Assembly (NCBI GenBank): GCA_002716585.1
Contig: PBBL01000081.1
Span: 62,001 to 126,000, forward strand
Direction: 5' to 3'
Length of the DNA: 64,000 nt
Source of the DNA: Myxococcales bacterium
GTDB taxonomy: Bacteria > Myxococcota_A > Bradymonadia > Bradymonadales > GCA-2716585
Shown: positions 1,154 to 54,644 of the stretch, piece by piece
Position numbering within the stretch: position 1 is the stretch's first letter
Layout: each line of letters starts with the position of its first letter
The notes under the pieces: generated by a model
Database searches by the model: none
What the model was told of the DNA's origin: nothing
Seen by the model: the letters and a program-made list of their open reading frames with translations, nothing else
Program-made: the position numbers and the translations under genes

Positions 1154-3406
1154 TCACAACCGCCACGCCAGCCTCGTGTAGCGCACCCGCGCCGAGACAT
1201 TCTTGACGGCGCGGTTGAGCGCCTTCTCCATCGTGACGATCACCGCCAGCCTGCGGGCTCGGGTGAGGGCCGTGTAGAGCAGGTTGCGCTCCAGCATGAC
1301 GTAGTGCGCGGTCGCCAGCGCGATGACCACGACGGGGTACTCCGAGCCCTGGCTCTTGTGCGCCGTGATGGCGTAGGCGAGCTGAAGCTCGTCCAGCTCG
1401 TCCAGCTCGTAGCGGATCTCGTTGTCGTCCACCTCCACGATGAGGCCGGGCTCGTCATCGGCGCCCGCGGTGATGTCGATGACGTGGCCGATGTCCCCAT
1501 TGAAGACGTTCTTGTCGTAGTTGTTGCGGATCTGCATGACCCGGTCCCCGACCTTGAAGACCCGCTGCCCGCGCTGGATCATCGCGTCCTCCGACGGGTT
1601 GAGGAGCGACTGCAGCTCATGGTTGAGGCGCTCACACCCCACCACCCCCCGCCGCATGGGTGAGATCACCTGCACGTCGGTGGCCGGATCAAACCCGAAC
1701 GCGGCCTCGACGCGCTCCGTGACGATCTTCAGGGTCTTGGCGAGCACGTCGTCCGGCGACCGCGCGGGCACCAGGAAGAAGTCTGTGCTGGTGATGTCTT
1801 TGGGGACCTGGGTGTCCGGGTAGCGGCCTTTGTTGATGGCGTGGGCGTTGCGCACGATGGCGGACATCGCCGCCTGACGGAACACCTCGGTCAACCGACA
1901 CACCGGGACCGCCCCCGACCGGATGAGGTCGGCCAGCACGTTGCCTGGCCCGACCGACGGGAGCTGATCCACGTCCCCGACGAGCACCAGCTTGCTCCCC
2001 GAAGGGACCGAGCGCAGCAGCGCGCGCATCAGGTGGATGTCGATCATGGACGCCTCATCGACGATGATGACGTCGCCCGCGAGCGGGTTCTCCCGGTTGC
2101 GTTGGAAACCCCCCGCCTGAAATGAGAACTCCAGGAGGCGGTGCAGGGTCTGCGCCTGCCGCCCGGTCGTCTCCGTCAGGCGACGGGCGGCGCGGCCCGT
2201 GGGCGCCGACAGGTTGACGCTCCACTCCTGCTCGTCGCAGATGGAGCAGATCGCCTGCACGATGGTCGTCTTCCCCGTACCTGGCCCCCCCGTGATGACC
2301 AACACCCGGTGCTGCGCCGCCCCGGCGATGGCGTCGCGTTGCTGGGGGGCCAGCTCCAGCTTCAGCTCCTCCTCGGTCTCGTCGATCAGCTCCTCGATGA
2401 CGTCCTGCTCCAGGGCGCGATCCTGAATCAGCTCCGGCTCCAACAGCCGCTTGAGCTCCTGCGCGCAGGTCATCTCCGCGTCCCACGACGAGCGCGCGTA
2501 GACCGCCAGGTGACCCTCGCCGCGCGGATCCTCCTCCGCCGTCACCGGCTCGTGGAGCACGTCCTCGTCCTGGACGAGCGACTCAAGCGCCGACACGATG
2601 TGATCCCGGTTGACGCGCAGGTAGGCGCTGGCCCGCTCGATGAGCGCCTCCATGGGGAGGTAGAGGTGGCCCTCGCTCTGGGCCTCCATCAGCACGTGCT
2701 GGATGCCCGCCCGGACGCGCCGCGGGTCGTTGCCCTTGATGCCCATGTGCTCAGCGACCCGGTCGGCCAGCTTGAAGCCCATCCCGTAGACGTCCCGAGC
2801 CAGCCCGTAGGGGTTGCTCTGCACACGCACGATCGCGTCGTCTCCGTACGTCTTGTAGATCTTCGTCGCGTAGGCTGGTGTCACCCCGTGGCTTTGCAGG
2901 AACAGCATGATGTCGCGGACGAGCCCCTGCCTCTTCCACGCTGCGGCGATCCGCTCGATGCGCACCTGACCGATGCCCTCCACCTCCGAGAGGCGCTCAG
3001 GCTCGTTGTCGATGACGTCCAGGGTCTTGTCGCCGAACTTCTCCACGAGGCGGCTGGCGAGCTTCGGGCCGATCCCCTGAACCAGACCGCTGCCCAGGTA
3101 GATCTCGATCCCCTTGGCGCTGACCGGGACGTCGGTCTTGACCGTCCGTACGTCGAACTGGAGCCCGAAGCTCGGGTGCCGCTTCCAGCTCCCCCACAGC
3201 TTGAGCTGCTCACCGGGGCGGGCGCCCAGCAGGTTGCCGACGACCGTCACCAGGGTCGGGCGCTTGAAGAGCGTCTCTCCCGAGGTCTCCTCGCGGAGCT
3301 GCGCCACGCACCAGCTCCCTTCGTCGTTGGAGTACTTGATCCTCTCCAGCGTGCCCTCGATCCACTCCAGCTCCTCAGCGTCCTGTGCCATGCCGTTCAC
3401 CTCCAT
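1154..3406 (-). CDS. recD2: RecD2-type ATP-dependent DNA helicase
   Basis: This is a 750-residue SF1B 5'-3' helicase of the RecD2 (RecD-like, RecBC-independent) family. It has an OB-like N-terminal region, a helix-hairpin-helix segment (GIGPKLASRLVEKFGD), then the ATPase core. Walker A is GGPGTGKTT with Lys near residue 379, the DEAS box is VDEASMID, and the C-terminal motif is ITAHKSQGSEYPVVVI followed by LYTALTRARRLAV. The length is normal for RecD2. No recB or recC neighbour is present, which fits RecD2 rather than RecD of RecBCD. The likely role is replication-fork or DNA repair. It is co-directional with the upstream type III secretion genes but separated from them by about 100 bp. Confidence 0.93.
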   Translation of the reverse strand: MEVNGMAQDAEELEWIEGTLERIKYSNDEGSWCVAQLREETSGETLFKRPTLVTVVGNLLGARPGEQLKLWGSWKRHPSFGLQFDVRTVKTDVPVSAKGIEIYLGSGLVQGIGPKLASRLVEKFGDKTLDVIDNEPERLSEVEGIGQVRIERIAAAWKRQGLVRDIMLFLQSHGVTPAYATKIYKTYGDDAIVRVQSNPYGLARDVYGMGFKLADRVAEHMGIKGNDPRRVRAGIQHVLMEAQSEGHLYLPMEALIERASAYLRVNRDHIVSALESLVQDEDVLHEPVTAEEDPRGEGHLAVYARSSWDAEMTCAQELKRLLEPELIQDRALEQDVIEELIDETEEELKLELAPQQRDAIAGAAQHRVLVITGGPGTGKTTIVQAICSICDEQEWSVNLSAPTGRAARRLTETTGRQAQTLHRLLEFSFQAGGFQRNRENPLAGDVIIVDEASMIDIHLMRALLRSVPSGSKLVLVGDVDQLPSVGPGNVLADLIRSGAVPVCRLTEVFRQAAMSAIVRNAHAINKGRYPDTQVPKDITSTDFFLVPARSPDDVLAKTLKIVTERVEAAFGFDPATDVQVISPMRRGVVGCERLNHELQSLLNPSEDAMIQRGQRVFKVGDRVMQIRNNYDKNVFNGDIGHVIDITAGADDEPGLIVEVDDNEIRYELDELDELQLAYAITAHKSQGSEYPVVVIALATAHYVMLERNLLYTALTRARRLAVIVTMEKALNRAVKNVSARVRYTRLAWRL

Positions 3407-3507
3407 GTGACGGGTGTAGGTGTATCACTGACAGGATGATCAGGGCAACCCCCACGCGGCCAGCGCGGCGCACCGCCTGCAGCCCGGCGCGGTCCTCAAG
3501 AGGCGCT

Positions 3508-3984
3508 TCAGTCGTCTCGCCGCAGCCGCGCATGCGTGAGCAGGTCGTTCAACTCATCTTCACGCGCGCGCTGTCGCCTTCGGCGCTGGCGCTCCTCCTG
3601 GGCCTTCAGCTCCTCCTGGAGCGCTTCGAGCGCCGCTCTGGTCTGGTTGTAGGTCTCCTCAAGGCGCCGCGCCTCTGCGCGGACCTTACGCAGCCTGAGC
3701 CGCGCCTCGTCGCGGGCGGTTTGAGACGCGTCCAGCGTGTGTTGAAGGCTGTCGCGGCTCTGGAGGTGGTGCCGGATGTCACGCACCGTGAAGGAGCCCG
3801 CCCGCTCGCGGTCAAGGCGGTGAAGGAACGCGTCAAGCGCCGCGTCGTGTTGGGCGACCTCCTCGTCCAACGCCGCGACCTCCTCCTGGAGTTGATCGCA
3901 GCGCCGCGCCGCCTCCACCCACGTCACGCGAGCGCGCTCCTCTTCCTCAGCGCTCAGCTCCAGGAGCGCGCGCAGGTCACTCAT
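3508..3984 (-). CDS. sctO: Type III secretion stalk protein, SctO/FliJ-like
   Basis: This 158-residue protein is almost entirely charged heptad-like coiled coil, rich in Glu, Arg, Gln and Leu. Its position directly after the SctN ATPase gene is that of sctO (YscO; flagellar FliJ). SctO/FliJ is the central stalk that inserts into the ATPase hexamer and links it to the export gate. I chose the ATG at 3984 because a GAGGA ribosome-binding site sits about 8 bp upstream and overlaps the sctN stop (TGAGGA). A TTG start at 4002 is possible but lacks this support. The family is too divergent for motif proof, so the call rests on size, coiled coil and gene order. Confidence 0.7.
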   Translation of the reverse strand: MSDLRALLELSAEEEERARVTWVEAARRCDQLQEEVAALDEEVAQHDAALDAFLHRLDRERAGSFTVRDIRHHLQSRDSLQHTLDASQTARDEARLRLRKVRAEARRLEETYNQTRAALEALQEELKAQEERQRRRRQRAREDELNDLLTHARLRRDD

Positions 3985-39263: not shown

Positions 39264-42200
39264 ATGTTCTCTATCCCTTTGGGTCCATTCGACCTTCAGA
39301 CCCCCATCGGCAAGGGTGGGATGGGAGAGGTCTGGCGGGGTGTTCACCGGGTTCAGCAGGTCCCGGTGGCGGTCAAGGTGATGACGGGGGCTCGGGCGCG
39401 TCAGCGGCGCTACCGCGAGGCGTTCCTGAATGAGGTGAGGGCGGTCGCGACCCTGAACCACCCGGGCGTGGTCATGATCTTCGACTACGGGACGGTGACC
39501 GCCGAGGCGGAGGAGCGCTCGGCGAGGCGGTTGGTGGCGCGGAGCCCCTACCTGGTGATGGAGCTGGCCAGCCGCGGCTCTCTGGATCAGATCCGGGGGA
39601 TCATCCCGTGGTCGGACTTGAAGCGCTTCCTGATCTCGTTGCTGGACGCGTTGGCGCATGCGCATGCGCGAGGGGTGATCCACCGCGATCTGAAGCCGGG
39701 GAACGTGCTGGTGTGCGCCGACACGGACCTCAGGCCCGGGCTGAAGCTGACCGACTTTGGCCTGGCCCACGCGCAGGACGAGACGGGGCCGGGGTTGACC
39801 CAGCACCGGGCGGGGACGCCGCGCTACATGGCGCCGGAGCTGTTTGAGGGGAACTGGCGAGACTATGGCCCCTGGACGGATCTGTACGCGCTGGGGTGCA
39901 TGGCGTACGAGATGTGCTCGAACCGGCCGATGTTCGACGGTCAGGACTTCCAGTCGCTCAAGCGTCAGCACCTGTATGAGCCGCCGCCTGCGCTGAAGGC
40001 GAGGCAGCCGGTGCCGGACGAGTTCGAGAGCTGGTTGATACGCCTGGTGCAGAAGAAGCCACACGAGCGCTACCAGTGCGCGGCGGACGCGGCGTGGGCG
40101 TTGATGCGGATGGATCTGGAGGCGGGCTCGGGCAACTTCAACTGGAGCATGGATCTGCCAGCGATGGGAGACAGCACGAACCTGATGTCCAACATGTCGG
40201 GGTTGGGTGAGGTGTCGACCTTCTTCTTCCCGGAGCTGCCGTGGAGCATGACCGCGTCGACGATGATGCAGCCGGACGACGACATCCACCGGGCGGCCAC
40301 GCACATGTTTCAGGATCGGCCGGTTCAGGACGCGTCGACCTATCTGTTCCCGGATTACGATCTGGCGCAGTCGCCGACCTACCTCTACTCCGGGGGGCTG
40401 CCGCGGGCCCAGCGTCAACGCCGCCCGACCTACGGTGAGCCGATCGAGGAGAGCGCGAGCGATCCGATGGCGGTGGCGCCCGCGCCGATGCCTCCGACGT
40501 GGAAGCACGCGGAGGCGGGGCCGCCGTCGATGCAACTGGTCGGGGTCGGCCTGCGCCTGTTCGAGCTGCGGACGGTTCGGATGGTGGGGCGCGAGAAGGA
40601 GCGGGACACCATCTGGAAGCAGCTCAAGGAGGTGAAGCAGAGCGGGCAGGCGCGGCTGGTGCTGCTGCACGGCCCGGCGGGTGTCGGCAAGAGCCGGATG
40701 GCGCAGCGGATCAGCGAGCGGGCGCTGGAGGTGGGCGCGGCGACCGTGCTGCGGGCGACCCACGATCCGATGTCCGCCTCGTCCGAGGGGTTGAGCCGGA
40801 TGGTGGCGCGTCACCTGGGGGCGTTGGGGATGCGGCGCCCCGAGATCCGGCGTCGGACGCGCAAGCTGCTTCAGGAGCAGGGGGTGACCGACCCCTACGA
40901 GTGGGACGCGTTGACGGAGATGCTGTCGTCGAGCCTGGACACGACGGTGATGGTGCGAGCCAAGCCGATCCAGTTCGCGGGGCCGGTGGAGCGGTACGTC
41001 CTGGTGCGGCGCCTGCTGGAGCGCGAGGGTCGGGAGCGGCCCGTGATCGTCTGGTTGGACGATGTGCAGTGGGGGAGCGACTCCATCGCCTTCGCGGAGT
41101 ACCTGATGAAGGGGCAGGCGGTGGCGCCCAGCCCGGTGTTGGTGCTGCTGACCGTGCGCGACGAGACGCTGGCTGAGCGCCCGATCGAGCGCGAGATGTT
41201 GGAGGGGTTGATGCGGCTGGAGGACACCCACGACATCCCGCTGGAGCCGCTCAACGTGGAGGAGATGAGGGCGCTGGTCGAGGAGCTGTTGGGGCTGTCG
41301 CCGGATCTGGCGCGCCTGGTGGAGAAGCGGACCCAGGGGAACCCGCTGTTCGCGGCTCAGCTGGTGGGGGACTGGGTGTCCCGCGGGGCGCTGGAGGTGA
41401 CCGAGGCGGGCTTCGTGCTCAAGGAGGGGGAGCGCGCCGATCTGCCGGACGACATCCACCAGGTGTGGTCGAGCCGGGTGGCGAGGCTGCTGGACGACGA
41501 AGACGACAGCGCGATGCTGGCGTTGGAGATCGCGGCGGTGCTCGGGTTGGAGGTGGACGCGCTGGAGTGGGAGTCGGCGTGCAAGGAGGCGGGGCTGCGG
41601 CTGTCGTTCCACCTGCTGTACAAGCTGATCTCGGCGCGGCTGGCGCAGCCCGCGGACAACGTGTGGACCTTCGCCCACAGCATGTTGCGGGAGAGCCTGG
41701 AGCGGAACGCGCGGGACGTCGGCAGGTGGCAGGCGCACAACCGCGCCTGCGCGGACATGCTCAAGAAGCGCTACCCGGGGAGGCCGCCCGGCGTCTCGGA
41801 GCGGCTGGGGCGCCACCTGATGGCCGCGGAGGACTTCGCGGCGGCGCTCGCGCCGCTGCTTCAAGGGGCGCGCGAGCACCTGGAGGACAACGAATACCGC
41901 GGGGCGCGCAACCTGCTGGGGATGCGCACCGAGGCGCTGATGGCGCTCGACGTGCCCGAGGAGGACGCCAACCATGGGCAGGGGTGGGTGATCGAGAGCG
42001 AGATCTCCAGGCGAGAGGGGCACCTCGATGAGGCGCTCCAGCTCGCGGTGAAGGCGGTTCGGTACGCGAAGAATCACGGTTGGGAGACCGTCAAGCCCAG
42101 CGCGCTGGAGTCGCTCGGGCACGTGTATCGGCTGATGGGGAACCTGGAGCGGGCGAGGACGGCCTACATCCAGGCGCGCAAGCTGTATGGGCGAGAGGAC

Positions 42201-43127
42201 GACTTTGCGGGGATCGTGAACTGTCAGCGGGGGCTGGGGCAGGTGGCGCACTACCGGGGTGAGCTGAGTCGGGCGACGGAGCTGCTGCACCACGCGCTGT
42301 CGACGAGCAAGCTGCTCAAGGACAAGCGGCGGGTCGCGGAGTGTTTGCAGGCGACCTGCCCGGTGGTGTTGCAGCGGGGCGACTTGCAGCTCGCCGCCGA
42401 CCTGAACCGACGCGCGATGCAGCTGCATGAGAAGGAGGGCAACACCCACGGGGTCGCGGAGTGTCGGCGCGAGGAGGCGCGCATCGCGGTGCTCCAGGGG
42501 GATCTGGATCGGGGCGCGAGCCTGTACGAGGACGCGCTTCAGCAGTTCGAGCGGTTGGGCGCGATCCACGGGATCACGACCTGCTTGAGGGGGTTGGCCG
42601 AGATCGCCCTGCTGAGGGGGTGGTTCGACACAGCGCGCGATGGGTACGAGCGGGTGCTGTTTCTGCACGAGGCGAGCGGGCTGGGCGACCTGATCCTCCC
42701 GCGGATCGAGCTGGGCTGGGTGTTGTTCAAGGAGGGCAAGCACCTCGCCGCGCGTGAGACGTTCGCGGAGTGCCTGGATATGGCCCGAGCGGAGGAGTTG
42801 AAGACGGTCGTGGCGGTGGCGCTGTCCTATCTGGTGGCGAGCGCGAGCCAGGCGCGCGACTGGATGTTCTGGTGGGAGAGCTTTCACGAGCTGGAGAGCC
42901 TGCTGGAGAGCATCCAGATCGTGGACGCGCACGTGGCGCTGGCGCTCCAGGAGGCGGGCGGGGTGTCCGCCGAGGCGACCCAGTTCTCGGCGGCGAAGGC
43001 GGCCTACACCGCCTCCAGGCGGCAATGGGAGGTGCTGGGGAGGCAGGACCGGCTCGCCGAGATCGACGGGGCGTTGCTGCGCATCCCGCTGGACGAGGTG
43101 GCCGAGGTGGAGCCGGTGGGCTCATGA
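39264..43127 (+). CDS. Ser/Thr kinase fused to ATPase and TPR domains
   Basis: 1287 residues. The N-terminal kinase domain has GKGGMGEVW, VAVKVM, HRDLKPGNVL (about 139-148) and LTDFGLAHA. A linker of about 150 residues leads to an AAA/STAND-type ATPase with HGPAGVGKSRMA (about 469-480) and VIVWLDDVQWG. The rest is TPR repeats (for example ALESLGHVYRLMGNLERART). This is the well-known myxobacterial PknB-ATPase-TPR architecture, usually a cytoplasmic signalling hub. The start is an ATG preceded by GAGGTGG. Its stop overlaps the following minus-strand ORF by 6 bp. Confidence 0.93.
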   Translation: MFSIPLGPFDLQTPIGKGGMGEVWRGVHRVQQVPVAVKVMTGARARQRRYREAFLNEVRAVATLNHPGVVMIFDYGTVTAEAEERSARRLVARSPYLVMELASRGSLDQIRGIIPWSDLKRFLISLLDALAHAHARGVIHRDLKPGNVLVCADTDLRPGLKLTDFGLAHAQDETGPGLTQHRAGTPRYMAPELFEGNWRDYGPWTDLYALGCMAYEMCSNRPMFDGQDFQSLKRQHLYEPPPALKARQPVPDEFESWLIRLVQKKPHERYQCAADAAWALMRMDLEAGSGNFNWSMDLPAMGDSTNLMSNMSGLGEVSTFFFPELPWSMTASTMMQPDDDIHRAATHMFQDRPVQDASTYLFPDYDLAQSPTYLYSGGLPRAQRQRRPTYGEPIEESASDPMAVAPAPMPPTWKHAEAGPPSMQLVGVGLRLFELRTVRMVGREKERDTIWKQLKEVKQSGQARLVLLHGPAGVGKSRMAQRISERALEVGAATVLRATHDPMSASSEGLSRMVARHLGALGMRRPEIRRRTRKLLQEQGVTDPYEWDALTEMLSSSLDTTVMVRAKPIQFAGPVERYVLVRRLLEREGRERPVIVWLDDVQWGSDSIAFAEYLMKGQAVAPSPVLVLLTVRDETLAERPIEREMLEGLMRLEDTHDIPLEPLNVEEMRALVEELLGLSPDLARLVEKRTQGNPLFAAQLVGDWVSRGALEVTEAGFVLKEGERADLPDDIHQVWSSRVARLLDDEDDSAMLALEIAAVLGLEVDALEWESACKEAGLRLSFHLLYKLISARLAQPADNVWTFAHSMLRESLERNARDVGRWQAHNRACADMLKKRYPGRPPGVSERLGRHLMAAEDFAAALAPLLQGAREHLEDNEYRGARNLLGMRTEALMALDVPEEDANHGQGWVIESEISRREGHLDEALQLAVKAVRYAKNHGWETVKPSALESLGHVYRLMGNLERARTAYIQARKLYGREDDFAGIVNCQRGLGQVAHYRGELSRATELLHHALSTSKLLKDKRRVAECLQATCPVVLQRGDLQLAADLNRRAMQLHEKEGNTHGVAECRREEARIAVLQGDLDRGASLYEDALQQFERLGAIHGITTCLRGLAEIALLRGWFDTARDGYERVLFLHEASGLGDLILPRIELGWVLFKEGKHLAARETFAECLDMARAEELKTVVAVALSYLVASASQARDWMFWWESFHELESLLESIQIVDAHVALALQEAGGVSAEATQFSAAKAAYTASRRQWEVLGRQDRLAEIDGALLRIPLDEVAEVEPVGS

Positions 43128-43575: not shown

Positions 43576-43962
43576 TCAGGGCTCTTTCTGGAGCGAGCGG
43601 ACCAGCTTGACGAGCTCGGCGACGGTCTGGGGGTCGGACTCCAGGTCGGGGTTGGGCGACATGACGTGGGAGAGCCCGACGGAGGGGCCGCCCTCGACGA
43701 TGACCTTGCGGATCCGCTCGTCGCTGACGCTCTTGTGCCACATCGGGTGGGTCAGATCCCGGGGTTGGGCTCGCAGCCCCGGGACGGCTTGACCGTCACC
43801 GCGCCCCTCCGCGCCGTGGCAGGCGGCGCATCGGTTCTCCCACAGGAGCTTCGCCTTGAGCTGTGGGTCGTCGACCCGCGTCGCGCCGCCGCTCCCGTCG
43901 CAGGCGGCGGTCAGGAGGAGGAGGAGCAGGACCAGCGGGGTGTGGTGGAGGTCAGTCATCAT
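43576..43962 (-). CDS. Cytochrome c lipoprotein
   Basis: 128 residues. The signal is rich in Leu with lipobox TAAC. The mature protein has one haem-binding CAACH motif after ENR, and a distal Met in SHVMSPNPDL that fits the axial ligand. It is a class I-type mono-haem c cytochrome on the outer face of the membrane, an electron carrier of unknown partner. GAGGGG lies upstream of the tandem ATGs at 43962/43959. Confidence 0.85.
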   Translation of the reverse strand: MMTDLHHTPLVLLLLLLTAACDGSGGATRVDDPQLKAKLLWENRCAACHGAEGRGDGQAVPGLRAQPRDLTHPMWHKSVSDERIRKVIVEGGPSVGLSHVMSPNPDLESDPQTVAELVKLVRSLQKEP

Positions 43963-44210
43963 AAGGCCCCTCGACATCCTGGGCGGGTCGCGTTGGTGGG
44001 ATCATGGCCTCTGTCGAGGCATCCTGGCGTGTTCGCTCTACCATTGAAACTTCTTCTCGTTCAACGCTCGGCGCCTGGAACTTCTTGACATGGACTGAAC
44101 GGCGAGTTAGGGCTGAACTAACGTCACGGTTCGGGGCGGGATGGGTTCGACGTCTCGCTTCGGCTATCATGGGCAGCCGACGGTCGGTCTGCGAGCAGGA
44201 CAAGCGACGC

Positions 44211-47200
44211 ATGGACGTCATCATCAAAGAGAGCTTTACGGCGAGCATTCAGGTGCTGGAGCCCGGTCAGCAGGGCGCGGTCAAGCATCTGGCGTTCGAC
44301 CTCCAGCTCGAGTCCGACGCTCAGCGCGCCGCGCGCCTGGTCCCGTTGTTGGAGGAGCGGGGTTACTGGAAGATCAAGGCGACCCCTCGAACCTGGGTGG
44401 TGGTCCACCTGTCCGAGGAGACGTTCGCGTTGTGTTACGCGGCAGCGGAGGAGGATATTCTCCCCTGGCTCAAGTTGGAGGTGTTGTCGCACAGGCCGTC
44501 GGAGTACCAGGCGGCGTTGGACGTCGCGGTTCACGCGGCGCGTGAGGCGGGCAGGCGGCTGCGGCAGGAGTTCCACCGTCCAGGCGGGCCACGCGGCGAC
44601 GGGCACAAGGAGCCCATCGATCGGGAGGTGGAGACCCTCATCCGGGCCCAGATCGATCGCGCCTTTCCTCGCCATGGGATCGTCAGCGAGGAGTCTCCCG
44701 AGGAGAACCGCGCCCCCGAGGATCCCGAGGGGCACACCTGGCTGATCGATCCCAACGACGGGACGAGCGGGTTTCATCAGGGTTATCGGGGGGCCTCGGT
44801 GTCCATCGCGCTGTTGCGGGACGGGGTGCCGGTGTTGGGGGTGATCTACGCGTACGCGGCGCCGGACGGTGAGGGGGATCTGCTGGCCTGGGCCGAGGGG
44901 TGCGGGCCGATGACCCGGAACGGTGAGGTGGTGCGGAGGAGGCCGTGGGCGGCGACCCTGAATGAAGGCTCGGTCGTGATGGTGTCGCACCTGGCGGACA
45001 CGCGGGCGCTCGCGAACGCCCGCTGCGTCCACCCCGCCCGTTACCGGACGATCCCGGGGATCGCCTACCGGCTGGCGCTCGTGGCGGCGGGCGAGGGCGA
45101 GGTGGGGGTGTCGATCGCGGGGTCGCGCCCCTTCGATGTGGCGGCCGGGCATGCGCTGCTGCGATCGCAAGGTGGGGAGTTGGTGGGCGTCGGTGGGGCG
45201 CCGATCACGTACACGCGGGATGGCGGCGGTGAGGTGGGCGCGTGCGCGGGAGGCTCGCCGGAGCTGGCCGCGTGGTTGCTGGAGAGGCCGTGGAGCGTGG
45301 TGTTGAACGCCGCGGACTGTGTCACGGAGCCGTTGGATCTGACGCCGCCGCTGCAAGGATCGCCCGCGTACGACGACGGGATGCTGGATCGGGCGGTTGG
45401 GGCGCTCTGTGGGGCGGTGACGGGGGACGCGCTGGGGAGCCTGGTGTCGTTTCAGACCCCCGCCAGCATCTTGAGGCGCTTCCCGAGCGGCCTCCACGAG
45501 CTGCACCCGAACACGACCTGGGGGACGCTGGCCGGTCAACCGACCGACACCACGGAGTCGCTGTTGGCGTTGGCGAGGGCGCTCGTGGCGGAGGGTGGGT
45601 TTGACGAGGAGGCGATCGCGCGGGCGTACGTCTGGTGGTATCGGACGCGACCTTTTGACATGGATCGGGTGACCGAGCGGGTGCTGGAGGCGCTGTCGGA
45701 GGTTGGGGTCGAGGAGCGCGGCCTGGCCGCGTTGGCCCGTCAGGAGGCGGGTCACCAGGCCGACAAGCAGGGGAACGGGGCGTTGATTCGGCTCGCGCCG
45801 CTGGCGGTCGCCGGGCATCGGGTCGGGCCACAGGTCGTCGCGTCGTGGGCGGTGGCGGACACGTCGCTGACGCATGCCCACCCGGTCTGCCGGGACGCGA
45901 GCGTCGTGCTCGCCGTCGCGATGGCGCATGCGATCGCGACCGGGCGAGGCCCGGCGGACGTGTACGCGTACGCGAAGCACAAGGCGCAGGAGCTGAGCCT
46001 GCACCGCAACGTGGTGAGGACGCTGGAGAACGCGGGGACACGGGCGCCGCGCGACTACACCCACCGGGCGAACTGGGTGCTGGTCGCGTTGCAGAACGCG
46101 TTTCACCAGCTGGTGTTTGCGCCGGATGTGGAGCAGGGGGTGATCGACACGGTCATGCGAGGCGGTGACGCGGACGCCAACGCCGCGGTGACCGGGGCGC
46201 TGTTGGGGTCGGTGTACGGTCACAAGGGGTTGCCCGAGCGGTGGCGGCGCCTGGTGCTGACGTGCCGCCCGCTGGAGGGGTTGGACGGGGTGTCGCGGCC
46301 TCGCCCGAGGGCGTTCTGGCCGGTCGATCTGACGGTGCTGGCCGAGCGGCTGCTGGCGTTGGGGGAGGACGGGCAGCGGGGCGACGGTCAGGAGGTGCAG
46401 CCAGGGACGCGGATCCGGTCATCGCGGCGGCTCAAGCGCTCGGTGGTGCCGAGGCGACCCGACGCGCCGTTTCGCACGAGCCCGTCGGCGGTGGCGAGGT
46501 ACTTCTTTCTGGATTGCGCGCGCTTCTTCCGGTTCAAGTCGACGCGCGAGGCCGATCGGGTCAAGCAGGGGCTACCGGGGAAGCGCTTTGATCGCGGTCC
46601 GCTGATGCGGGAGCTGGTGTCGGACGGGTATCGGTGGGAGGAGGCGGTGCTGGAGCGCTACCTCAAGGGTCGGGTGGCGATCCCGGCGGGGTCGGGGCCG
46701 ATCCACACGCGCAACTTCACGATCCGGGACACGCTGGGGTTGCTGCACACCGAGCCCGCGGGGCGCTTCATCTACCAGGGGATGTTGAGGCCGCCGCCGG
46801 AGTTCTACAAGGCGTATGAGCTGGATCCGACGCTGTTGGAGTTCAGCGACAACTACCCGGACTTGATCGCGGTGATGGAGGATCCAAAGCGGCCTGGAGG
46901 GCGGCTGTTTCGGATCCTGGACGTCAAGCGGGGGATCTCGCTGCGGTCGACCTACACGGTGCAGATCCTGCTGTACGCCATGATCCTGGATCAGATCATC
47001 CGCGCGGAGGGGATCGAGGACGCGCGCGTGGACATGGAGCACGGCGGCGTGTGGCTGGGGATGTCGGAGGAGCCGGAGCCGTGCGATCTGACCAGTATTC
47101 GCCCTCACGTGCTGCGTTTTTTGAGAAAAGACATGCCTGGAATACTCCAGGCCGAGGTGGGCGAGGTGCCGTGGCACGTCTACTTCCGGTGCGAGTGGTG

Positions 47201-50200
47201 CGACTACTTCAAGCACTGTCGGCAGGAGATGCGCGAGGGCGACGACGTGTCGCGGGTGAGCCACCTGACGTCGTTCGCGAAGCGCTTCTTGGTGGAGCAG
47301 GCGGACGTGCGCACGGTGGGCGAGCTGAAGGGCTTTCTGGAGGGGGACGAGGCGGTCGAGGTGTTGTCGCAGTGCGCGTCGCTGTCGGGGCAGCGGCATC
47401 ACCTGAGGAGTCGGGTGGAGGCGCTGCACGGCGGCGAGGTGATGTTGTACGGGACGTCGTCGTCGGCGTTGGCGCGCCCGACGCAGCGGGACGTGTACAT
47501 CTACCTGACGCTTCAGAACGAGCCGCTGCACCGGACGACCTACATGGCGGGGATGATGATCAACGCCAACACGGGGGTCCCGCCCGCGGTGCTCGGTTCG
47601 GAGGAGGAGGCGACGCGCCCGGCGGTGTTCGTGGCGCGGACCCCGGAGGACGCGGACGCGGTGCGGCGCGAGTTCGTGAGGCGCCTGTATGAGGCGCTGA
47701 GGCGAGTCCATGATTACAACGCGGTGCGCAGCGAGCGCGATCAGTTGAGCCTGCAGCTGTTCGTGCACACGTGGTCGGAGCGGGATCTGTTGGTGAAGGC
47801 GCTGTTGGAGTCGCTGGATGAGCCGGAGCTGGCGCAGGCGGCGATGGCGCTGCTGCTCCACATCCAGGGTCCGGAGCTGATGGAGGCGGACGATCACCCG
47901 GAGGAGCCGGTGTCGCACCCGGTGGTGACGCTCCTGGGGGCGGTGGCGAGGTTGATGGCGCTGCCGGTGGAGGTGAGCTACACGTTGCCCGAGGTGATGG
48001 AGGCGCTGGGGTGTCGGTACACCTACCACCGAAGCAGCGAGTTTCACTTCCCGCTGGGTCACGGGCTCCGCGCCGATCCGATCATCTCGGCCTGGCTTCA
48101 CGGGAAGGCGGAGAACGTGGAGCGGGTCAGGAAGCAGGGGGAGAGCCTGCTGTTCGCGATCCGGTCGTTGATGTGGACGCTGCGCGACAAGGCGATGGAT
48201 CACCTGTTCGCCTGGCCGCCGCGGTTTGTCTTCCCGACCGTCGAGCAGATCAAGGATCCGCTGCTGTCGAGGCTGGCGTTCTTCGCGCGCTACGAGAGCT
48301 ACATGAGGTGTTTGCAGGTGCGCGGTCCGCGGCTGGAGTCGCTGGTGGCGCAGCGTCAGAACGGCACCGTGATTGAGCTGGAGGCGTTGGACGATCAGGT
48401 GATGCGGGTGATCGCCCCGGCGGTGGAGCTGTCGGCGAACGACTTCTCGAACTGGATCCTGGTGCCGGACACGCCGGAGGGGCATCAGGCGCAGCTGACG
48501 TTCGACGATTACCGCTATCGGCGCACGGCGTGGCGGTGGGCGCCGCATGAGTCGCGGGCGGTGGTGGGGCTGGTGAGCGTGCTCAGCGACGAGCTTGGGT
48601 TCACCAGCCACGTGCGGCTGTTGTTCTACTCGGAGTTCCGGGGACAGCCGCCGAAGCGTGGCGAGCGCTACCTGCTGTACCCGCGGTTTCAGGACTTCAA
48701 CACCGATCGGGTGGTGAATTTCCTCAAGAAGCTCGATCGGATCGGTCCGGGGTTGTTCCTGGAGCTGTTGAGGGATCCGGTGGCGGCGTCCTCCGAGCGG
48801 CTGCTGCCAGCGGAGATCGAGGAGACGGCGCAGGCGCAGGAGGAGGCGCTGAAGCTGACCCCGAGCAAGATCGAGGCGTACCGCGCGATCCGAGAGCGAC
48901 GGATGATGGCGGTCTGGGGGCCGCCGGGGACGGGCAAGACGCACTTCCTGGCGTCGGTGATCCTGGGGCTGGCGTCGGCCTACGCGCGCCACGGGCGGCC
49001 CTTTCGGGTGTTGGTGACGGCCTTCACCCACGCGGCGATCGAGAACCTGCTGGCGCGGATCACGGAGCTTGAGCAGAAGCGGCCCGAGCTGTCGTGCGGC
49101 TTGCGGTTGGGGAAGGCGGCGAGCTGGTATGGGACCGAGCACGGCGAGCAGGTGGCGGTCAAGGAGATGTCGGGCTGGCTGGATCAGGGCGGGTGTCTGG
49201 TGCTGGGGGCGACGGTCTACGCCTGCCTCAAGGTGTACGACGAGATCCCGGACTTTGATCTCGTGGTGATCGACGAGGCGTCCCAGGTGAGGGTGCCCGA
49301 GGCGTCGATCCCGGCGAGCAAGGTGGCGCCGGATGGGCGACTGGTGTTGGCGGGGGATCACTTTCAGCTGGCGCCGATCGTGGTGGGCAGCTACCCGGAG
49401 CCGGACGAGGGGCAGCCGGTGCTGCACCGCTCGGTGTTTGAGGCGGTCCAGTCGATGGCGGTGGGCGACGACGGGTTGGTGCGTCAGCTGCTTGAGAACT
49501 TCAGGATGAACAGCACGTTGACCAACACCGCGGCGCGGCTGCTGTACCCCGACTACACCTGCATCGATGAGGACACGGCCAATCAGCGGATCGCCATCGA
49601 CATGCCGGAGGATCTCGATCCGCTGCTTGAGGCCTGCCTCGACCCCGAGCACCCGTTGGTCCTGGTGGTCCTGCGGGGCGTGGTGGCGGCGCGCGAGAAC
49701 CCGATCGAGGCCAGCCTGGTGGCGGATCTGGTGTTGACGCTGCGCGAAGGGCTGCACGCAGGCGACGGCCACCCATATGGGGACGACGCATCATTTTTTC
49801 GGGACGGCGTGTTCGTGGTCAGCCCCCACCACAGCCAGATCCGCCTGATTCGCCGCGAGCTGGCGGCGCGGCGGGTCTGGAGCGCCGCGCCGTTCGTGGA
49901 CACGGTGGACAAGATGCAGGGTCAGGAGGCGGAGGCGGTGATCGTCAGCTATGGGGTCTCCGACGCTGAGTTTGCGATGATGGAGGCCGACTTCATCTAC
50001 GGGCTCAACCGGTTGAACGTCTCGATCACCCGGGCGCGCGCCAAGACGATTGTGTGCTTGCCGCAGCCGCTGCTGGACGCGTCACCGCAGGTGCTGGAGA
50101 CGCGGGAGGCGGCGCAGGGGTTGGCGTTCATGCGGCGCCTCTCGGAGCTGGTGGAGGAGCACGGCGATCGCCTTGAGTTTTCGTTGGGCGATGGGGTGGA

Positions 50201-50240
50201 GGTGGACGTCTACCGGCTCTCCTACCTGGATCAGGCGTGA
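44211..50240 (+). CDS. Giant fusion: IMPase-like + ADP-ribosylglycohydrolase + Fe-S nuclease + SF1 helicase
   Basis: 2009 residues in one frame. (1) An N-terminal region of about 80 residues is unassigned. (2) Inositol-monophosphatase-fold domain, about 95-360: metal ligands EE at 160-161, DPNDGT (D180, D183) and PFDVAAG (D309). (3) ADP-ribosylglycohydrolase (DraG) domain, about 390-730: GAVTGDALG (D406), PTDTTES (D446), NGALIRLAPLAV, GGDADANAAVTGALLG (D653, D655). (4) Cas4/Dna2/AddB-like PD-(D/E)XK nuclease, about 755-1010: D884, then DVKRG (D904, K906), with cysteines at 769, 994, 997 and 1003 spaced like a 4Fe-4S cluster. (5) UPF1/Dna2-type SF1 helicase: GPPGTGKT (K1576), VIDEAS (D1688, E1689), LNVSITRARAK. 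The start was chosen at the ATG before MDVIIKESF; the frame extends to 44004 over promoter-like sequence. The C-terminal half resembles Dna2. It converges on mcrBC, which suggests defence or repair. Confidence 0.85.
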   Translation: MDVIIKESFTASIQVLEPGQQGAVKHLAFDLQLESDAQRAARLVPLLEERGYWKIKATPRTWVVVHLSEETFALCYAAAEEDILPWLKLEVLSHRPSEYQAALDVAVHAAREAGRRLRQEFHRPGGPRGDGHKEPIDREVETLIRAQIDRAFPRHGIVSEESPEENRAPEDPEGHTWLIDPNDGTSGFHQGYRGASVSIALLRDGVPVLGVIYAYAAPDGEGDLLAWAEGCGPMTRNGEVVRRRPWAATLNEGSVVMVSHLADTRALANARCVHPARYRTIPGIAYRLALVAAGEGEVGVSIAGSRPFDVAAGHALLRSQGGELVGVGGAPITYTRDGGGEVGACAGGSPELAAWLLERPWSVVLNAADCVTEPLDLTPPLQGSPAYDDGMLDRAVGALCGAVTGDALGSLVSFQTPASILRRFPSGLHELHPNTTWGTLAGQPTDTTESLLALARALVAEGGFDEEAIARAYVWWYRTRPFDMDRVTERVLEALSEVGVEERGLAALARQEAGHQADKQGNGALIRLAPLAVAGHRVGPQVVASWAVADTSLTHAHPVCRDASVVLAVAMAHAIATGRGPADVYAYAKHKAQELSLHRNVVRTLENAGTRAPRDYTHRANWVLVALQNAFHQLVFAPDVEQGVIDTVMRGGDADANAAVTGALLGSVYGHKGLPERWRRLVLTCRPLEGLDGVSRPRPRAFWPVDLTVLAERLLALGEDGQRGDGQEVQPGTRIRSSRRLKRSVVPRRPDAPFRTSPSAVARYFFLDCARFFRFKSTREADRVKQGLPGKRFDRGPLMRELVSDGYRWEEAVLERYLKGRVAIPAGSGPIHTRNFTIRDTLGLLHTEPAGRFIYQGMLRPPPEFYKAYELDPTLLEFSDNYPDLIAVMEDPKRPGGRLFRILDVKRGISLRSTYTVQILLYAMILDQIIRAEGIEDARVDMEHGGVWLGMSEEPEPCDLTSIRPHVLRFLRKDMPGILQAEVGEVPWHVYFRCEWCDYFKHCRQEMREGDDVSRVSHLTSFAKRFLVEQADVRTVGELKGFLEGDEAVEVLSQCASLSGQRHHLRSRVEALHGGEVMLYGTSSSALARPTQRDVYIYLTLQNEPLHRTTYMAGMMINANTGVPPAVLGSEEEATRPAVFVARTPEDADAVRREFVRRLYEALRRVHDYNAVRSERDQLSLQLFVHTWSERDLLVKALLESLDEPELAQAAMALLLHIQGPELMEADDHPEEPVSHPVVTLLGAVARLMALPVEVSYTLPEVMEALGCRYTYHRSSEFHFPLGHGLRADPIISAWLHGKAENVERVRKQGESLLFAIRSLMWTLRDKAMDHLFAWPPRFVFPTVEQIKDPLLSRLAFFARYESYMRCLQVRGPRLESLVAQRQNGTVIELEALDDQVMRVIAPAVELSANDFSNWILVPDTPEGHQAQLTFDDYRYRRTAWRWAPHESRAVVGLVSVLSDELGFTSHVRLLFYSEFRGQPPKRGERYLLYPRFQDFNTDRVVNFLKKLDRIGPGLFLELLRDPVAASSERLLPAEIEETAQAQEEALKLTPSKIEAYRAIRERRMMAVWGPPGTGKTHFLASVILGLASAYARHGRPFRVLVTAFTHAAIENLLARITELEQKRPELSCGLRLGKAASWYGTEHGEQVAVKEMSGWLDQGGCLVLGATVYACLKVYDEIPDFDLVVIDEASQVRVPEASIPASKVAPDGRLVLAGDHFQLAPIVVGSYPEPDEGQPVLHRSVFEAVQSMAVGDDGLVRQLLENFRMNSTLTNTAARLLYPDYTCIDEDTANQRIAIDMPEDLDPLLEACLDPEHPLVLVVLRGVVAARENPIEASLVADLVLTLREGLHAGDGHPYGDDASFFRDGVFVVSPHHSQIRLIRRELAARRVWSAAPFVDTVDKMQGQEAEAVIVSYGVSDAEFAMMEADFIYGLNRLNVSITRARAKTIVCLPQPLLDASPQVLETREAAQGLAFMRRLSELVEEHGDRLEFSLGDGVEVDVYRLSYLDQA

Positions 50241-50369: not shown

Positions 50370-51593
50370 TCACATGGACTCAAGCAGTGAAGCGAGCATG
50401 CGGTGACCGTTGTGGTCGAGGTCACCGCTGAGGGGAAACGCGAGGCGTTGGATGCGCACGTCTCCGACGTGGATGTCGAAGGGCTGTTCAAACGCGAGAG
50501 GGTAGATCAGGAAGGCGCGGCGGCAGGAGAGGCTCTGGGCGTAGGCGACGAGCTGGGCGAGGTCTTCGGAGGAGGGGCGCTCGGCGTCTTTGTACTTGGT
50601 GTCGAGGACGCCGAGGACCTGACCGGTGCCGAGGTCGTAGAGGACGAGGTCGATATTGAAGTAGACGTGGGTGCGTCGGTCGACGTCGACGCGCTGCTGG
50701 GCGCGGATCGCGAGGTGTTCGGGGAGGTGTGTGGAAAACCAGGCGGCGACGAACTGCTCAAAGAGCCGGTCCATGTGGACGAGGAAGGGCAGGGTGGGGT
50801 GGTCGCCGCGCTCGTGCTGCGGGCCGCTGTGGGCGAGGAAGAAGCGACAGAGGGCGTGGAGCGGGGCGTAATCCTGGTTCATGCGGTGGTAGCTTCGTTG
50901 CACGCAGTCGGCGGGGGAGAAGGGCTTGAGGGTGACGGCGTTTCGGAGGGTGCGCCACGCGCGCCCAACGACGGTGTGGCTGCGGGGGCCGCAGAGCCCG
51001 CTGTGGGCGATGGTGTAGAGGGTCCAGGCGAGTATCTGGTTGTCTTCGACGTCGACGGTGCTGCGCTGGATCTGGCAGCGGGGCGGGACGGCCCAGGGGC
51101 GGCGGGCGAGGTCGTTGAGTTCAATGCGGCCGCGAACGCAGTGGCCGTCGCTGCGTTGAGAGACGAAGGCGCGGTGAAACCCCTTACGGCTGCGTTCGAG
51201 GACCTTGCGGGCGAGTATGAGCGCGAGCTGCTCGTAGACCTCGGGGAGATCTTCGCAGTGGATCAGGTCGTCCAGGAAGCGAACGCTGCGAAGGTGGTAG
51301 GCGTATTCGAGCATCCGAAACAGGTTGCTGATCTCGACCTTGGGGGCGATGTGAAGCATCAAGCCCGATGGCAGCGGGATCGTCCCAACCCAGCCGAGGG
51401 CGCGCAGCTCCCAGCCGCCCTGCGTCTTGGGTGAGGGGAACTCCACGGCGACCTGGGCGCTGTAATGGCGCCAGAGGTGTTCGCCGACTTCGGCGGGCAG
51501 GTGTTTCACGTGAAACCATGCCGGAGAGCGTTCCGTGAGCCTCAGCGTCCTGGTGTTCAGGCGATGAGGATCTGTGAGGCGACGCTCTCCCAC
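50370..51593 (-). CDS. mcrC: McrC-type nuclease subunit
   Basis: 407 residues. The McrC family N-terminal region (LRLTER, then GGWELRALGWVGTIPL) precedes a C-terminal PD-(D/E)XK nuclease domain with VLDTKYKD (D331, K333) and an upstream Asp in NIDLVLYD. With McrB it would cut DNA, classically at modified cytosines. The start is GTG at 51593, supported by GAGAGG upstream, and lies inside the end of mcrB (37-bp overlap). A full parS core is embedded in frame near the start, encoding part of WFHVKH. Confidence 0.88.
   Translation of the reverse strand: MGERRLTDPHRLNTRTLRLTERSPAWFHVKHLPAEVGEHLWRHYSAQVAVEFPSPKTQGGWELRALGWVGTIPLPSGLMLHIAPKVEISNLFRMLEYAYHLRSVRFLDDLIHCEDLPEVYEQLALILARKVLERSRKGFHRAFVSQRSDGHCVRGRIELNDLARRPWAVPPRCQIQRSTVDVEDNQILAWTLYTIAHSGLCGPRSHTVVGRAWRTLRNAVTLKPFSPADCVQRSYHRMNQDYAPLHALCRFFLAHSGPQHERGDHPTLPFLVHMDRLFEQFVAAWFSTHLPEHLAIRAQQRVDVDRRTHVYFNIDLVLYDLGTGQVLGVLDTKYKDAERPSSEDLAQLVAYAQSLSCRRAFLIYPLAFEQPFDIHVGDVRIQRLAFPLSGDLDHNGHRMLASLLESM
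51502..51517. other. parS: parS site 6, inside mcrC
   Basis: TGTTTCACGTGAAACC carries the intact core. It falls within the N-terminal coding region of mcrC. On the minus strand it reads as codons for part of Trp-Phe-His-Val-Lys-His. Confidence 0.82.
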
Positions 51594-54298
51594 CGAAACC
51601 TCTCAAGCTTATCGGGTTGATCAAAGAAGAACTCTTCGAGGTAGGGCTCGATCTCCATGCGCCAGACGTCCTCCAGCTCGTCTTGAAGCCGCTGGCGGAG
51701 GAAGAAGGAGATCCCGACCTCGTAGTGGCGGTCGCCGATCGCCTGGTTGAGGGCCTTGAGGGTCGCGATCAGCCCCCCCACGAAGAACCCGGTGTTGGCG
51801 TGGTATCGGCGCAGGACCTCGTAGTTGGGTCGGAGGTTCAGAAACACAAAGCGGCGTCGCAGCGCGTAATCCACCAGGGCGATGGAGCGATCGGCGGTGT
51901 TCATGGTCCCAATCAGGCGCACGTTGCCCGGAATCCGAAATGGACCACCTCCCGCGAGGGGGATCTCGCGGTCGCGGTACTCCAGGAGGTACATCAGCTC
52001 GCCGAACACGCGGGAGAGGTCGGCCCGGTTGATCTCATCAATGATCAGGACACACCGTCCGTCTCGGGCCGCGGCCTTTTCACAGAACCTCAGGAGGCGA
52101 CCCGGGACCATCGCGTACTTCAGGACGCCGTCGGTGCCCACGCTGGGCCGGATCCCCTGGATGAAGTCCTCGTAGCTGTACGCCGGGTGGAACTGCACCA
52201 GCTCCGCGAACCCGGAGCCCCCATCGACGAGCTGCTGGGCCAACAGCTCGGCGAGGTAGGTCTTCCCCGTCCCGGGCGGCCCGTAGATGATCGCCTGCCC
52301 TTTGCGCTCGATCGCGTCCACCCAGCGGGAGAGCTGCTCGGCGCTCAAGCCGGTGATGTGGGCGATCTCGCTCAGCGGCTTGCGGGGCTCGGCTTCCTCC
52401 TCCGCCTCCTCGGTGAGGGTCGCTTCGCCCAGGTGTTCGCTGATCGCGAGCAGCGGGTCGTCGTCCACGGCCAACAAGACCAGCACAAACAGGCGCTCAT
52501 ACAGATCCAGGATCGCCCGTATCATCGGGTCGGTCCCCAACCGAACCGCCTCGCCGCGCGGGATCTCGACAGCGACGCGGACCCCGTGCTGTTCGGGGTC
52601 TGCGAGCCACTCGTGCCAGGTCGGTCGGGAGTCGCCTGACCCCTCAGGCGCCGTCCGCGCGCCCCAGGTGAGCTGTTTGTCGTGGAACACGCCCTCCAAC
52701 AGCTGCCCCAGGAGCGCCTGGTGCCGTTGGCAGTTGTCCACAAAGCGCGCCTGGATCGACTCGGCGTACTCGCCGATGTCAAAGCCGAACTCCAACGCCT
52801 CGTGATCGATCCGCATGTACAGCTGGGCGGACGCGATCCGCTTGCTCCCCCGCGGATAGAAGGCGCCCCAATAATGATCCCAGGCGCCCCCTCGCCCGAA
52901 GTCGTTCTTGAGGATCCGGCCAAACAGCCCCTCCGTGGTCTCCATCACCTCCTGAATCGGGACGGGCAGCAGCTCGCCGATCTTGAGGAAGACCTGTTGG
53001 AAGGGCCACTCGATGTGGCGGCGGAACGACTCCTTGTGCGCGAGGTAGATCTGCTTGGTGGGCTCGTCGTGCAGGGCGTCGAGCAGATCAAAGCTGTGTT
53101 CGGTGAAGGGGAACTCGAGGTGCCTGCCGCTGCCGGGCTGGGTGTCGGGGAGGGCGGCGGGCTCGGCGCTCTGGATGCGCTCGAACCGAGGCTGCGTCAG
53201 ACGCGCCAGGGGCTGCTTCCAGCTCTTGCCCGGGATCGAGCGGGCGGTCAGATCATCCCAGCGGACCGGGATCCGATGCCCCCAGGTCGTGTCGGGCCTA
53301 TAATAATAGTTACCCACCACCGTCCCGATCCCCAGGATGTTGGCGTCTCCGTAGTTGGCGACGACGCGGTCGCCCTCGTGGATCTGGGAGCGAAACCTCC
53401 AGACCTGCTCCAGCTCCTTCTGGCGACTCGCGGTCGTGACGTCCTCCAGCAGGTCGGTCCGGCGCGCGACGAACTCGTCATGATCAAGGAGGCTCAGGTC
53501 GCCCAGCTCCTCCCAACCCATCGCGACGAACCCCTCATCGCGCCACGCGTCCCACCCGCGCGGATCCTCGCCCAGCGCGATCCGCCAGGCGCGGGGAGAT
53601 TGCAGCGGCTCGCCGCGCAGCTCGACCCGCCACCAGCAGAACATCCCAAAGAGATCGTCAGGGCGGACGTCGCTCAACTGCTCCGGCGCGAGGACGTCGC
53701 CCAGCGAGGCCAGCGCTTCGCGGTGCGCGGCCTGGACCTCGGGGTAGGCGCGGAGCGTGTTTCGAAGGCGATCGTTGAGCAGGTGACCGACGACGTCTCG
53801 CGTGGACGCGTTGATGATCGGGAACGCGTCGGGCGAGAGCGCGTTGAGGATCGGAGAGAGCAGATCGGAGGTGAGGCAGCGGGCGATGGGGGAGGCGGCG
53901 AGGGAGCGGCAAGAGGACTCAAAGCGCTCGGGCTGTGTGACGCAGCGCTCGATGAAGTCGATGAGCAGGGTGGTCAGCTCATCCCAGTCGAGCGCGTCGC
54001 TTCGGGCGTTGTTCTGAAGCGCGGTCCGAGCCTCACCGCGGAGCGTGGGTTGTACATGAACCCAGGCGCCCTGCTCCAGGTTGCGGGTCGAGTCGGGGTG
54101 AGGGAACAGCTTGAGCAGCGCGAGGTCGACGGCGGCAGGGGTGCCGCGTGCTTCAAGCGTGCGCTCCCAGCCCTGGCGGCCGCTGGCGCGGGTCCTGGGG
54201 AGGAGATCGGCGTGACGCCGCCCCGGGGGTGAGGAGGCGAACTCCTTGAGGAAGCTCTTGAAGTGACTTGTGAACTCGTCTTTTTTACGCGTGTCCAT
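51557..54298 (-). CDS. mcrB: McrB-type AAA+ restriction subunit
   Basis: 913 residues. The N-terminal half carries a helical region (IINASTRDVVGHLL). An EVE/PUA-like segment follows (WDAWRDEGFVAMGWEELGDL; GDRVVANYGDANILGIGTVV), then a DUF2461-like region (LKNDFGRGGAWDHYWGAFYP). The AAA+ domain has IIYGPPGTGKTY (K679), VLIIDEINRADLSR and the McrB hallmark IGTMNTADRSIALVDYALRR. EVE-like modules in such proteins read modified bases, so the target is probably modified or foreign DNA. The ATG at 54298 begins MDTRKKDEF; the frame extends to 54340. mcrC overlaps its 3' end. Confidence 0.88.
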   Translation of the reverse strand: MDTRKKDEFTSHFKSFLKEFASSPPGRRHADLLPRTRASGRQGWERTLEARGTPAAVDLALLKLFPHPDSTRNLEQGAWVHVQPTLRGEARTALQNNARSDALDWDELTTLLIDFIERCVTQPERFESSCRSLAASPIARCLTSDLLSPILNALSPDAFPIINASTRDVVGHLLNDRLRNTLRAYPEVQAAHREALASLGDVLAPEQLSDVRPDDLFGMFCWWRVELRGEPLQSPRAWRIALGEDPRGWDAWRDEGFVAMGWEELGDLSLLDHDEFVARRTDLLEDVTTASRQKELEQVWRFRSQIHEGDRVVANYGDANILGIGTVVGNYYYRPDTTWGHRIPVRWDDLTARSIPGKSWKQPLARLTQPRFERIQSAEPAALPDTQPGSGRHLEFPFTEHSFDLLDALHDEPTKQIYLAHKESFRRHIEWPFQQVFLKIGELLPVPIQEVMETTEGLFGRILKNDFGRGGAWDHYWGAFYPRGSKRIASAQLYMRIDHEALEFGFDIGEYAESIQARFVDNCQRHQALLGQLLEGVFHDKQLTWGARTAPEGSGDSRPTWHEWLADPEQHGVRVAVEIPRGEAVRLGTDPMIRAILDLYERLFVLVLLAVDDDPLLAISEHLGEATLTEEAEEEAEPRKPLSEIAHITGLSAEQLSRWVDAIERKGQAIIYGPPGTGKTYLAELLAQQLVDGGSGFAELVQFHPAYSYEDFIQGIRPSVGTDGVLKYAMVPGRLLRFCEKAAARDGRCVLIIDEINRADLSRVFGELMYLLEYRDREIPLAGGGPFRIPGNVRLIGTMNTADRSIALVDYALRRRFVFLNLRPNYEVLRRYHANTGFFVGGLIATLKALNQAIGDRHYEVGISFFLRQRLQDELEDVWRMEIEPYLEEFFFDQPDKLERFRWESVASQILIA

Positions 54299-54644
54299 GT
54301 CCCGTGCCTGGCGCGCTGGCCCTTCATCGCAGGCCGCCACATCCTACCACGCGGCAGATCGCGGTAACAGAGCGGCGAGTGCGATGGTCGCGACCTTCGC
54401 AGCGGAAGGAGGGTGGGGCGACGTGGTGGATCAGGGAGGAACTTGCGGGATGGGCAGGCCGATCTATGCTCGTGCCATGGCAGAGAACAAACGCTCAGCA
54501 GGTTGCGCCTGGTCTTTCCGTCTGGATTGGCTTGTTTAATGGTCGGGTCTTTATGTAAGCCAATTGAGGCGGAGCATGGCGACGCCCTTTCTTTCGGGGG
54601 GCGGCGCGATATGATGTGTCCGGGTCCGAGCCTCTTGAGGTGAG
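54299..54644. other. Divergent intergenic region, no gene
   Basis: 346 bp between mcrB (leftward) and the PBP lipoprotein (rightward), less GC-rich than the coding sequence. TATGAT at 54610-54615 could be the -10 box of the rightward gene, but there is no matching -35. No hairpin or known regulatory RNA is recognised. Confidence 0.4.

Follow-up and report, generated by a model that had tools for sequence, protein, structure and literature searches.

The fusion gene and its domains

The window analysed in this work is a stretch of 64,000 nucleotides (positions 62,001 to 126,000 of the forward strand of contig PBBL01000081.1) from a Myxococcales bacterium (GenBank assembly GCA_002716585.1), a metagenome-assembled genome (MAG) with an assembly of 4.25 Mb that is 66% complete. 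It contains a gene, hereafter the fusion gene, that encodes in one chain, and in this order, a RelE-fold domain, a phosphatase of the inositol monophosphatase (IMPase) fold, a domain of the DraG (ADP-ribosylglycohydrolase; ARG) fold, a Dna2-type Fe-S nuclease and a superfamily 1 (SF1) helicase; the nuclease-helicase part will be referred to as the core. The features of the gene, in positions of the window, are (aa, amino acids):

44211..50240, plus strand: whole fusion gene, 2009 aa, stop-free frame
44211..44495, plus strand: N-terminal domain of the RelE/HigB/YafQ fold, sequence-diverged (aa 1-95), from homology, AlphaFold2 and Foldseek
44514..45275, plus strand: IMPase-fold phosphatase (aa 102-355), Pfam PF00459 Inositol_P, 1.2e-33
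45399..46241, plus strand: DraG/ADP-ribosylglycohydrolase domain (aa 397-677), Pfam PF03747 ADP_ribosyl_GH, 1.8e-50
46311..46466, plus strand: linker from DraG to nuclease (aa 701-752), with no convincing internal start
46467..47240, plus strand: Cas4/RecB/Dna2-type PD-(D/E)XK Fe-S nuclease (aa 753-1010), from TIGR03491 and conserved residues
47490..47825, plus strand: tentatively, a degenerate domain resembling RNase H (aa ~1094-1205), from the order of strands and helices in the model
48831..50090, plus strand: SF1 UPF1/DNA2-like helicase (aa 1541-1960) with Walker A K1576, Pfam AAA_11/AAA_12 at aa 1557-1948

An earlier description made from the letters of the DNA (the original prediction) had reported a single uninterrupted frame of 2009 residues, and this was borne out: the frame is free of stops and frame +1 had the best coding score in 40/40 blocks of 50 codons, all domain junctions included. 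The uniform coding score over 2009 codons rules out separate genes merged by a missed stop or frameshift; an internal restart at the nuclease was also ruled out, as there are merely GTG/TTG codons without good ribosome-binding spacing. An ATG at 44004 could also open the frame, but the aligned N-termini of homologues point to a start at 44211. That the gene is an assembly chimera of two genes is extremely unlikely: the genome is metagenome-assembled and the same junction was seen in no close relative, but the gene lies inside a contig of 194 kb, the window contains no N, GC content at third codon positions is 0.86-0.91 in each domain with an even codon bias across the junction, and the N-terminal RelE homology agrees with two further proteins from Myxococcota, in which the order is RelE-X-core (see below).

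All four domains named in the original prediction are present, as judged from Pfam, NCBIfam and relatives, but the RelE-fold domain ahead of them had been missed. Residues 1-95 are homologous to the N-termini of RelE-UvrD proteins, including those of two other Myxococcota (E 2e-11), and a plasmid-borne RelE-UvrD relative exceeds the Pfam cut-off for HigB-like_toxin. The AlphaFold2 model of this segment has a predicted local distance difference test score (pLDDT) of 90, and its top Foldseek matches are the toxins YafQ, YoeB and RelE; positions conserved among the relatives are, judged by eye, altered in the fusion protein. Within the IMPase fold, the NCBIfam model CysQ scores best, at 79 bits, under its cut-off of 229. 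The nearest PDB entries to the DraG domain are DraG 2woc/3g9d. The nuclease signal is weak in the fusion protein itself (TIGR03491, E 1e-7), and the assignment of this domain, a predicted Fe-S enzyme, as a nuclease is secured through relatives, by their conserved residues and by a Planctomycetota homologue that exceeds the Pfam cut-off for PDDEXK_1. The middle region, including aa ~1094-1205, is unrecognised by Pfam, and a fold search with the nuclease and middle region gave no significant match; residues 1094-1205 gave weak Foldseek matches (E 0.07 and above), to RNase T and to exonuclease domains.

In the PDB, a search with a core profile found DNA2, IGHMBP2 and UPF1, via the helicase part, and the proposal of a Dna2-like core is upheld by the succession of a PD-(D/E)XK motif and a DNA2/UPF1-type SF1 helicase. 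The fusion protein shares with Dna2/TM0106-type nuclease-helicases an Fe-S PD-(D/E)XK nuclease placed before an SF1 UPF1-like helicase, and the C-x2-C-x5-C arrangement of cysteines, but differs from them by its long N-terminal RelE-IMPase-DraG half and by the middle region. The helicase also matches the PADLOC model for DpdJ (1.2e-52), a component of the Dpd (7-deazaguanine DNA modification) systems. There, the gene before that for DpdJ resembles the nuclease and middle part of the fusion protein; unlike in the fusion, nuclease and DpdJ are the products of two genes.

Active-site residues

Intact catalytic or metal-binding residues had been proposed for all four domains. This holds for the IMPase, nuclease and helicase, whose motifs are complete, but not for DraG. 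In an alignment of the IMPase-DraG family, all the IMPase metal residues are kept (D137, E160, E161, D180, D183, G184, T185 and D309), which gives the E, DPxDGT and distal D typical of the superfamily. The nuclease has D884, D904-x-K906 and Q918, conserved in relatives, and the four cysteines of the Cas4/Dna2 type that had been predicted, C769, C994, C997 and C1003, the last three of which are invariant among relatives and the first nearly so. The DraG domain belongs to its family by fold and sequence, and retains D446, D483, H555, D653 (one of the residues predicted) and D655, but a complete binuclear metal site and the Glu flap are not found. The Glu-flap position, assigned by alignment with DraG 2woc, is occupied by S413 (E in 35/36 relatives with a residue there, D in one), the second Asp of the TDD motif is replaced by T447 (D in 34/36 relatives) and the Thr of DxDT by A656 (T in 31/34 relatives). 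E, D and T are kept at these three positions in 11/11 standalone relatives aligned. The position of T447 is presumably that of D56 in human ARH1. In ARH1, a D56N substitution alters the binding of metal and leaves the enzyme inactive (PMC7050489). Because the conserved E, D and T are replaced, the DraG domain of the fusion protein is probably not a working hydrolase but an inactive or impaired one, a loss that is likely rather than certain, and the removal of ADP-ribose suggested in the original prediction is not supported for this protein.

These substitutions bear on two alternatives. The first, in line with the original prediction, is an active eraser: ahead of resection, phosphatase and DraG would together free DNA or protein of a phosphorylated ADP-ribosyl group. 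It agrees with the retention of both sites in standalone IMPase-DraG proteins and with a NUDIX gene directly after the IMPase-DraG gene in two DNA records; for the fusion protein it is very unlikely, since its DraG has lost a conserved metal-site Asp, the Thr and the Glu of the flap. The second is a recent and largely neutral gene fusion, with independent halves and a decaying DraG half, as the three residues missing from DraG and the diverged RelE-fold end might suggest. This alternative keeps some weight because there is one instance only, but we think it unlikely: the 2009 codons are open and uniformly coding, similarity to relatives is almost as high in the DraG half as in the IMPase half, and IMPase, nuclease and helicase all have complete motifs.

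Distribution and modularity of the parts

IMPase-DraG also exists by itself, in proteins of about 600-640 aa, with profile matches in 40 of the 379 genomes sampled in the phylum, some 30 of them over the full length; a few members of the family retain one half only. These proteins, annotated as inositol monophosphatase family proteins, share with the fusion protein two domains in the same order, at 38-52% identity, and differ from it in having neither the RelE-fold domain nor the nuclease-helicase, and in their complete DraG site. Phosphatase and DraG, which the original prediction required to occur together in homologues, do form a standing two-domain family, but all four predicted domains occur together in no homologue found. 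Standalone core proteins (about 1240-1340 aa) are found in Planctomycetota, Myxococcota and elsewhere; the core is present in 9/379 genomes of the phylum sample, the fusion genome counted, and in 7/294 genomes of a Planctomycetota sample. In two Myxococcota, the core is fused behind RelE and UvrD (NB: hereafter, numbers with the prefix L are our labels for sequence records and loci):

L039:13982-19924, minus strand: RelE-UvrD-nuclease-helicase, two different SF1 helicases per chain, same core as the fusion
L064:190-6045, plus strand: RelE-UvrD-nuclease-helicase, two different SF1 helicases per chain, same core as the fusion

These proteins have 1951-1980 aa, and L039/L065 is from the same family as the fusion genome. 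Like RelE-UvrD proteins in general, they share the N-terminal fold with the fusion protein and, in addition, its core, but have a UvrD helicase where it has IMPase-DraG. The module behind the RelE fold is exchanged while the core is constant: UvrD in L039/L065 and L064, IMPase-DraG in the fusion; in Planctomycetota the core is bare.

The original prediction had proposed a search for the same domain order in other genomes. The fusion protein was the sole instance: no second RelE-IMPase-DraG-core fusion was found in a genome-contig scan, in the 379 genomes of the phylum or in the 294 Planctomycetota genomes, and elsewhere the parts are separate or in the order RelE-UvrD-core. As the first pass scored just a small number of candidates in each genome, and the patterns used were few, this absence is not proof. 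Among viral contigs, the full-length protein had no match and the core alignment one short, helicase-only match; IMPase-DraG was found in 0/337 genomes of an alphaproteobacterial sample, searched without a positive control. Two Planctomycetota genomes have both core and IMPase-DraG, on different contigs, and the idea that the core depends on IMPase-DraG as its obligate partner is unsupported.

Gene neighbourhoods

The placement beside mcrBC stated in the original prediction was confirmed. The two genes converge on the fusion gene:

50370..51509, minus strand: McrC, convergent, 129 bp past the fusion gene, Pfam PF10117, 7.5e-39
51557..54340, minus strand: McrB-type AAA_5 ATPase, Pfam PF07728, 8e-21

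This association recurs with DraG or IMPase-DraG on several viral contigs, where a scan with the IMPase-DraG profile gave 33 loci, five of them with McrC beside DraG. In L181, L187 and L188, McrB-McrC-DraG lie on one strand, in near-identical arrangements that count as one case; in L184, DraG and McrBC are divergent; and L178, with IMPase-DraG, NUDIX and then convergent McrC-McrB, is nearest to the layout of the window. Some genes ahead of McrB-McrC-DraG, L181 also encodes a second, different DraG-like protein (2042-3823).

Other neighbourhoods place the parts with further nucleases, helicases and regulators. An SF1 helicase gene immediately precedes DraG in L180. On a Myxococcota contig (L109:287-6512, plus strand), an operon-like run, cut by the contig end, consists of a partial DNA methylase, a distant nuclease-helicase of 1429 aa and DraG, with an overlap of 26 bp between the nuclease-helicase and DraG genes; the run looks like a restriction-type system. 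On two rhizobial plasmids, a gene for this type of nuclease-helicase converges with one for a DNA methyltransferase. In L150, L154, L158 and L160, which belong to one family, genes for WYL, PafC-like WYL and IMPase-DraG follow one another, and the PafC-like and IMPase-DraG genes overlap by 4 bp. In that family, the WYL regulators, which are PafB/PafC-like, and IMPase-DraG are apparently transcribed together. The Rhodobacter plasmid L035 (11252-15060) and contig L178 (251-7516) have in common IMPase-DraG and NUDIX together with a recombinase-like gene in divergent orientation, a run that we regard as a mobile cassette. On the plasmids L035 and L036, IMPase-DraG is adjoined by a TM0106-type nuclease; we no longer take this to prove linkage, because the nuclease is on 62 plasmid records as against four with IMPase-DraG over most of its length. 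Standalone RelE-UvrD genes adjoin restriction-modification or BREX genes on plasmids; in L090, L091 and L093 the neighbours are a BPTD_3080 restriction endonuclease and a DNA methyltransferase. Relatives of at least part of the standalone RelE-UvrD protein are on over 2000 plasmid records.

Comparison with ARG-centred systems and proposed function

Host systems built from an ADP-ribosylglycohydrolase and a phosphatase, and countering viral ADP-ribosylation, have been predicted; their surroundings include regulators of the WYL or Nudix kind as well as helicases and restriction-endonuclease domains. The ARG is coupled to a phosphatase in a little over 55% of neighbourhoods, and Nudix or WYL occurs in over 42% of the systems (PMC9503650, section 3.8). 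The statement in the original prediction that no described system combines phosphatase, DraG, nuclease and helicase has therefore to be narrowed, as similar systems are predicted there, but IMPase is not among the phosphatases listed. Our search of the open-access literature found no paper pairing inositol monophosphatase with ADP-ribosylglycohydrolase, or on the IMPase-DraG protein. The fusion fits this kind of system in its parts and contexts, IMPase being a further phosphatase: an ARG domain is coupled to a phosphatase, with a restriction-type nuclease and a helicase, and WYL or Nudix partners are found around the relatives. It differs in its phosphatase, in its probably inactive DraG and in having the nuclease-helicase in the same chain; in addition, no WYL or Nudix gene was found beside the fusion gene among the genes scanned, although such a partner is not strictly required. 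The same scan, which covered part of the genes of the window, found no dpdA, dpdB or preQ0/queuosine-pathway gene among the neighbours and no ADP-ribosyltransferase.

We tentatively favour the reading that the fusion protein is a one-chain composite of modules encoded separately elsewhere, in which a module for ADP-ribose/phosphonucleotides precedes a Dna2-like nuclease-helicase of restriction or repair, and as such a collapsed variant of the ARG-centred conflict systems (PMC9503650). The nuclease-helicase would load on a DNA end, unwind it and degrade it in the manner of Dna2-type enzymes, possibly for a restriction-like defence alongside McrBC, and the N-terminal half may act as its reader or gate. 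With metal-site residues lost, the DraG domain could bind its ligand, an ADP-ribosyl group or a molecule like ADP-ribose, and leave it uncleaved; the IMPase domain has a complete site and would take the phosphate off a ligand of the 2'(3')-phosphoadenosine type, and the RelE-fold domain may be a docking or nucleic-acid-binding part. A model of reader and degrader is favoured over one of eraser because the fusion protein probably cannot cleave ADP-ribose. A more specific form, in our view rather improbable, is a restriction enzyme licensed by ADP-ribosylation: a dead DraG would read ADP-ribose marks on DNA or on a DNA-bound protein, left for example by an ADP-ribosyltransferase of a phage or of the host, and activate the nuclease-helicase of the same chain, the IMPase setting or resetting the signal.

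Several observations weigh against the composite defence reading. The full domain order was seen in a single, 66%-complete MAG; mcrBC is the only clear defence system among the window proteins scanned; and McrC was found at 0/37 genome loci and 0/4 plasmid loci of IMPase-DraG or DraG, so that the link with McrBC is confined to part of the family. The IMPase-DraG genes of the phylum have mostly ordinary, unconserved surroundings, and the nearest core homologues, in Planctomycetota, have no defence neighbours recognisable by eye. In Rhodospirillum rubrum DraG, a change of Glu28 has a minor effect and Asp97 is crucial (PMC7050489); the counterpart of Asp97, D483, is retained in the fusion protein, and the case for an inactive DraG thus rests mainly on T447 and A656.

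The bare Planctomycetota core genes, which stand alone in unrelated neighbourhoods, together with the PafC-like regulators of IMPase-DraG, leave room for a DNA-repair enzyme, with Dna2/RecB-like end resection in chromosomal maintenance and handling of ADP-ribose or phosphonucleotides tied to DNA damage; PafBC is a DNA-damage activator (PMC11804915). We consider this unlikely, if worth keeping in view, as the core is patchily distributed, which is unusual for a repair enzyme, and the parts of the fusion are found in methylase, Dpd and McrBC contexts; the same distribution and contexts favour defence. In the composite reading, the ADP-ribose module known from predicted anti-virus systems would be physically joined to a DNA-degrading one, at a place that a UvrD helicase can occupy in other proteins with the core; with its DraG site likely inactive, the idea shifts from eraser to reader, and attention is drawn to the IMPase-DraG protein itself.

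Genes upstream of the fusion gene

Upstream of the fusion gene, positions 39264-43127 (plus strand) encode a protein of 1287 aa with Ser/Thr kinase, AAA_16 and TPR domains, and an open shadow frame of 1275 codons runs on the opposite strand. A small cytochrome c gene (43576-43962, minus strand) separates the kinase gene from the fusion gene.

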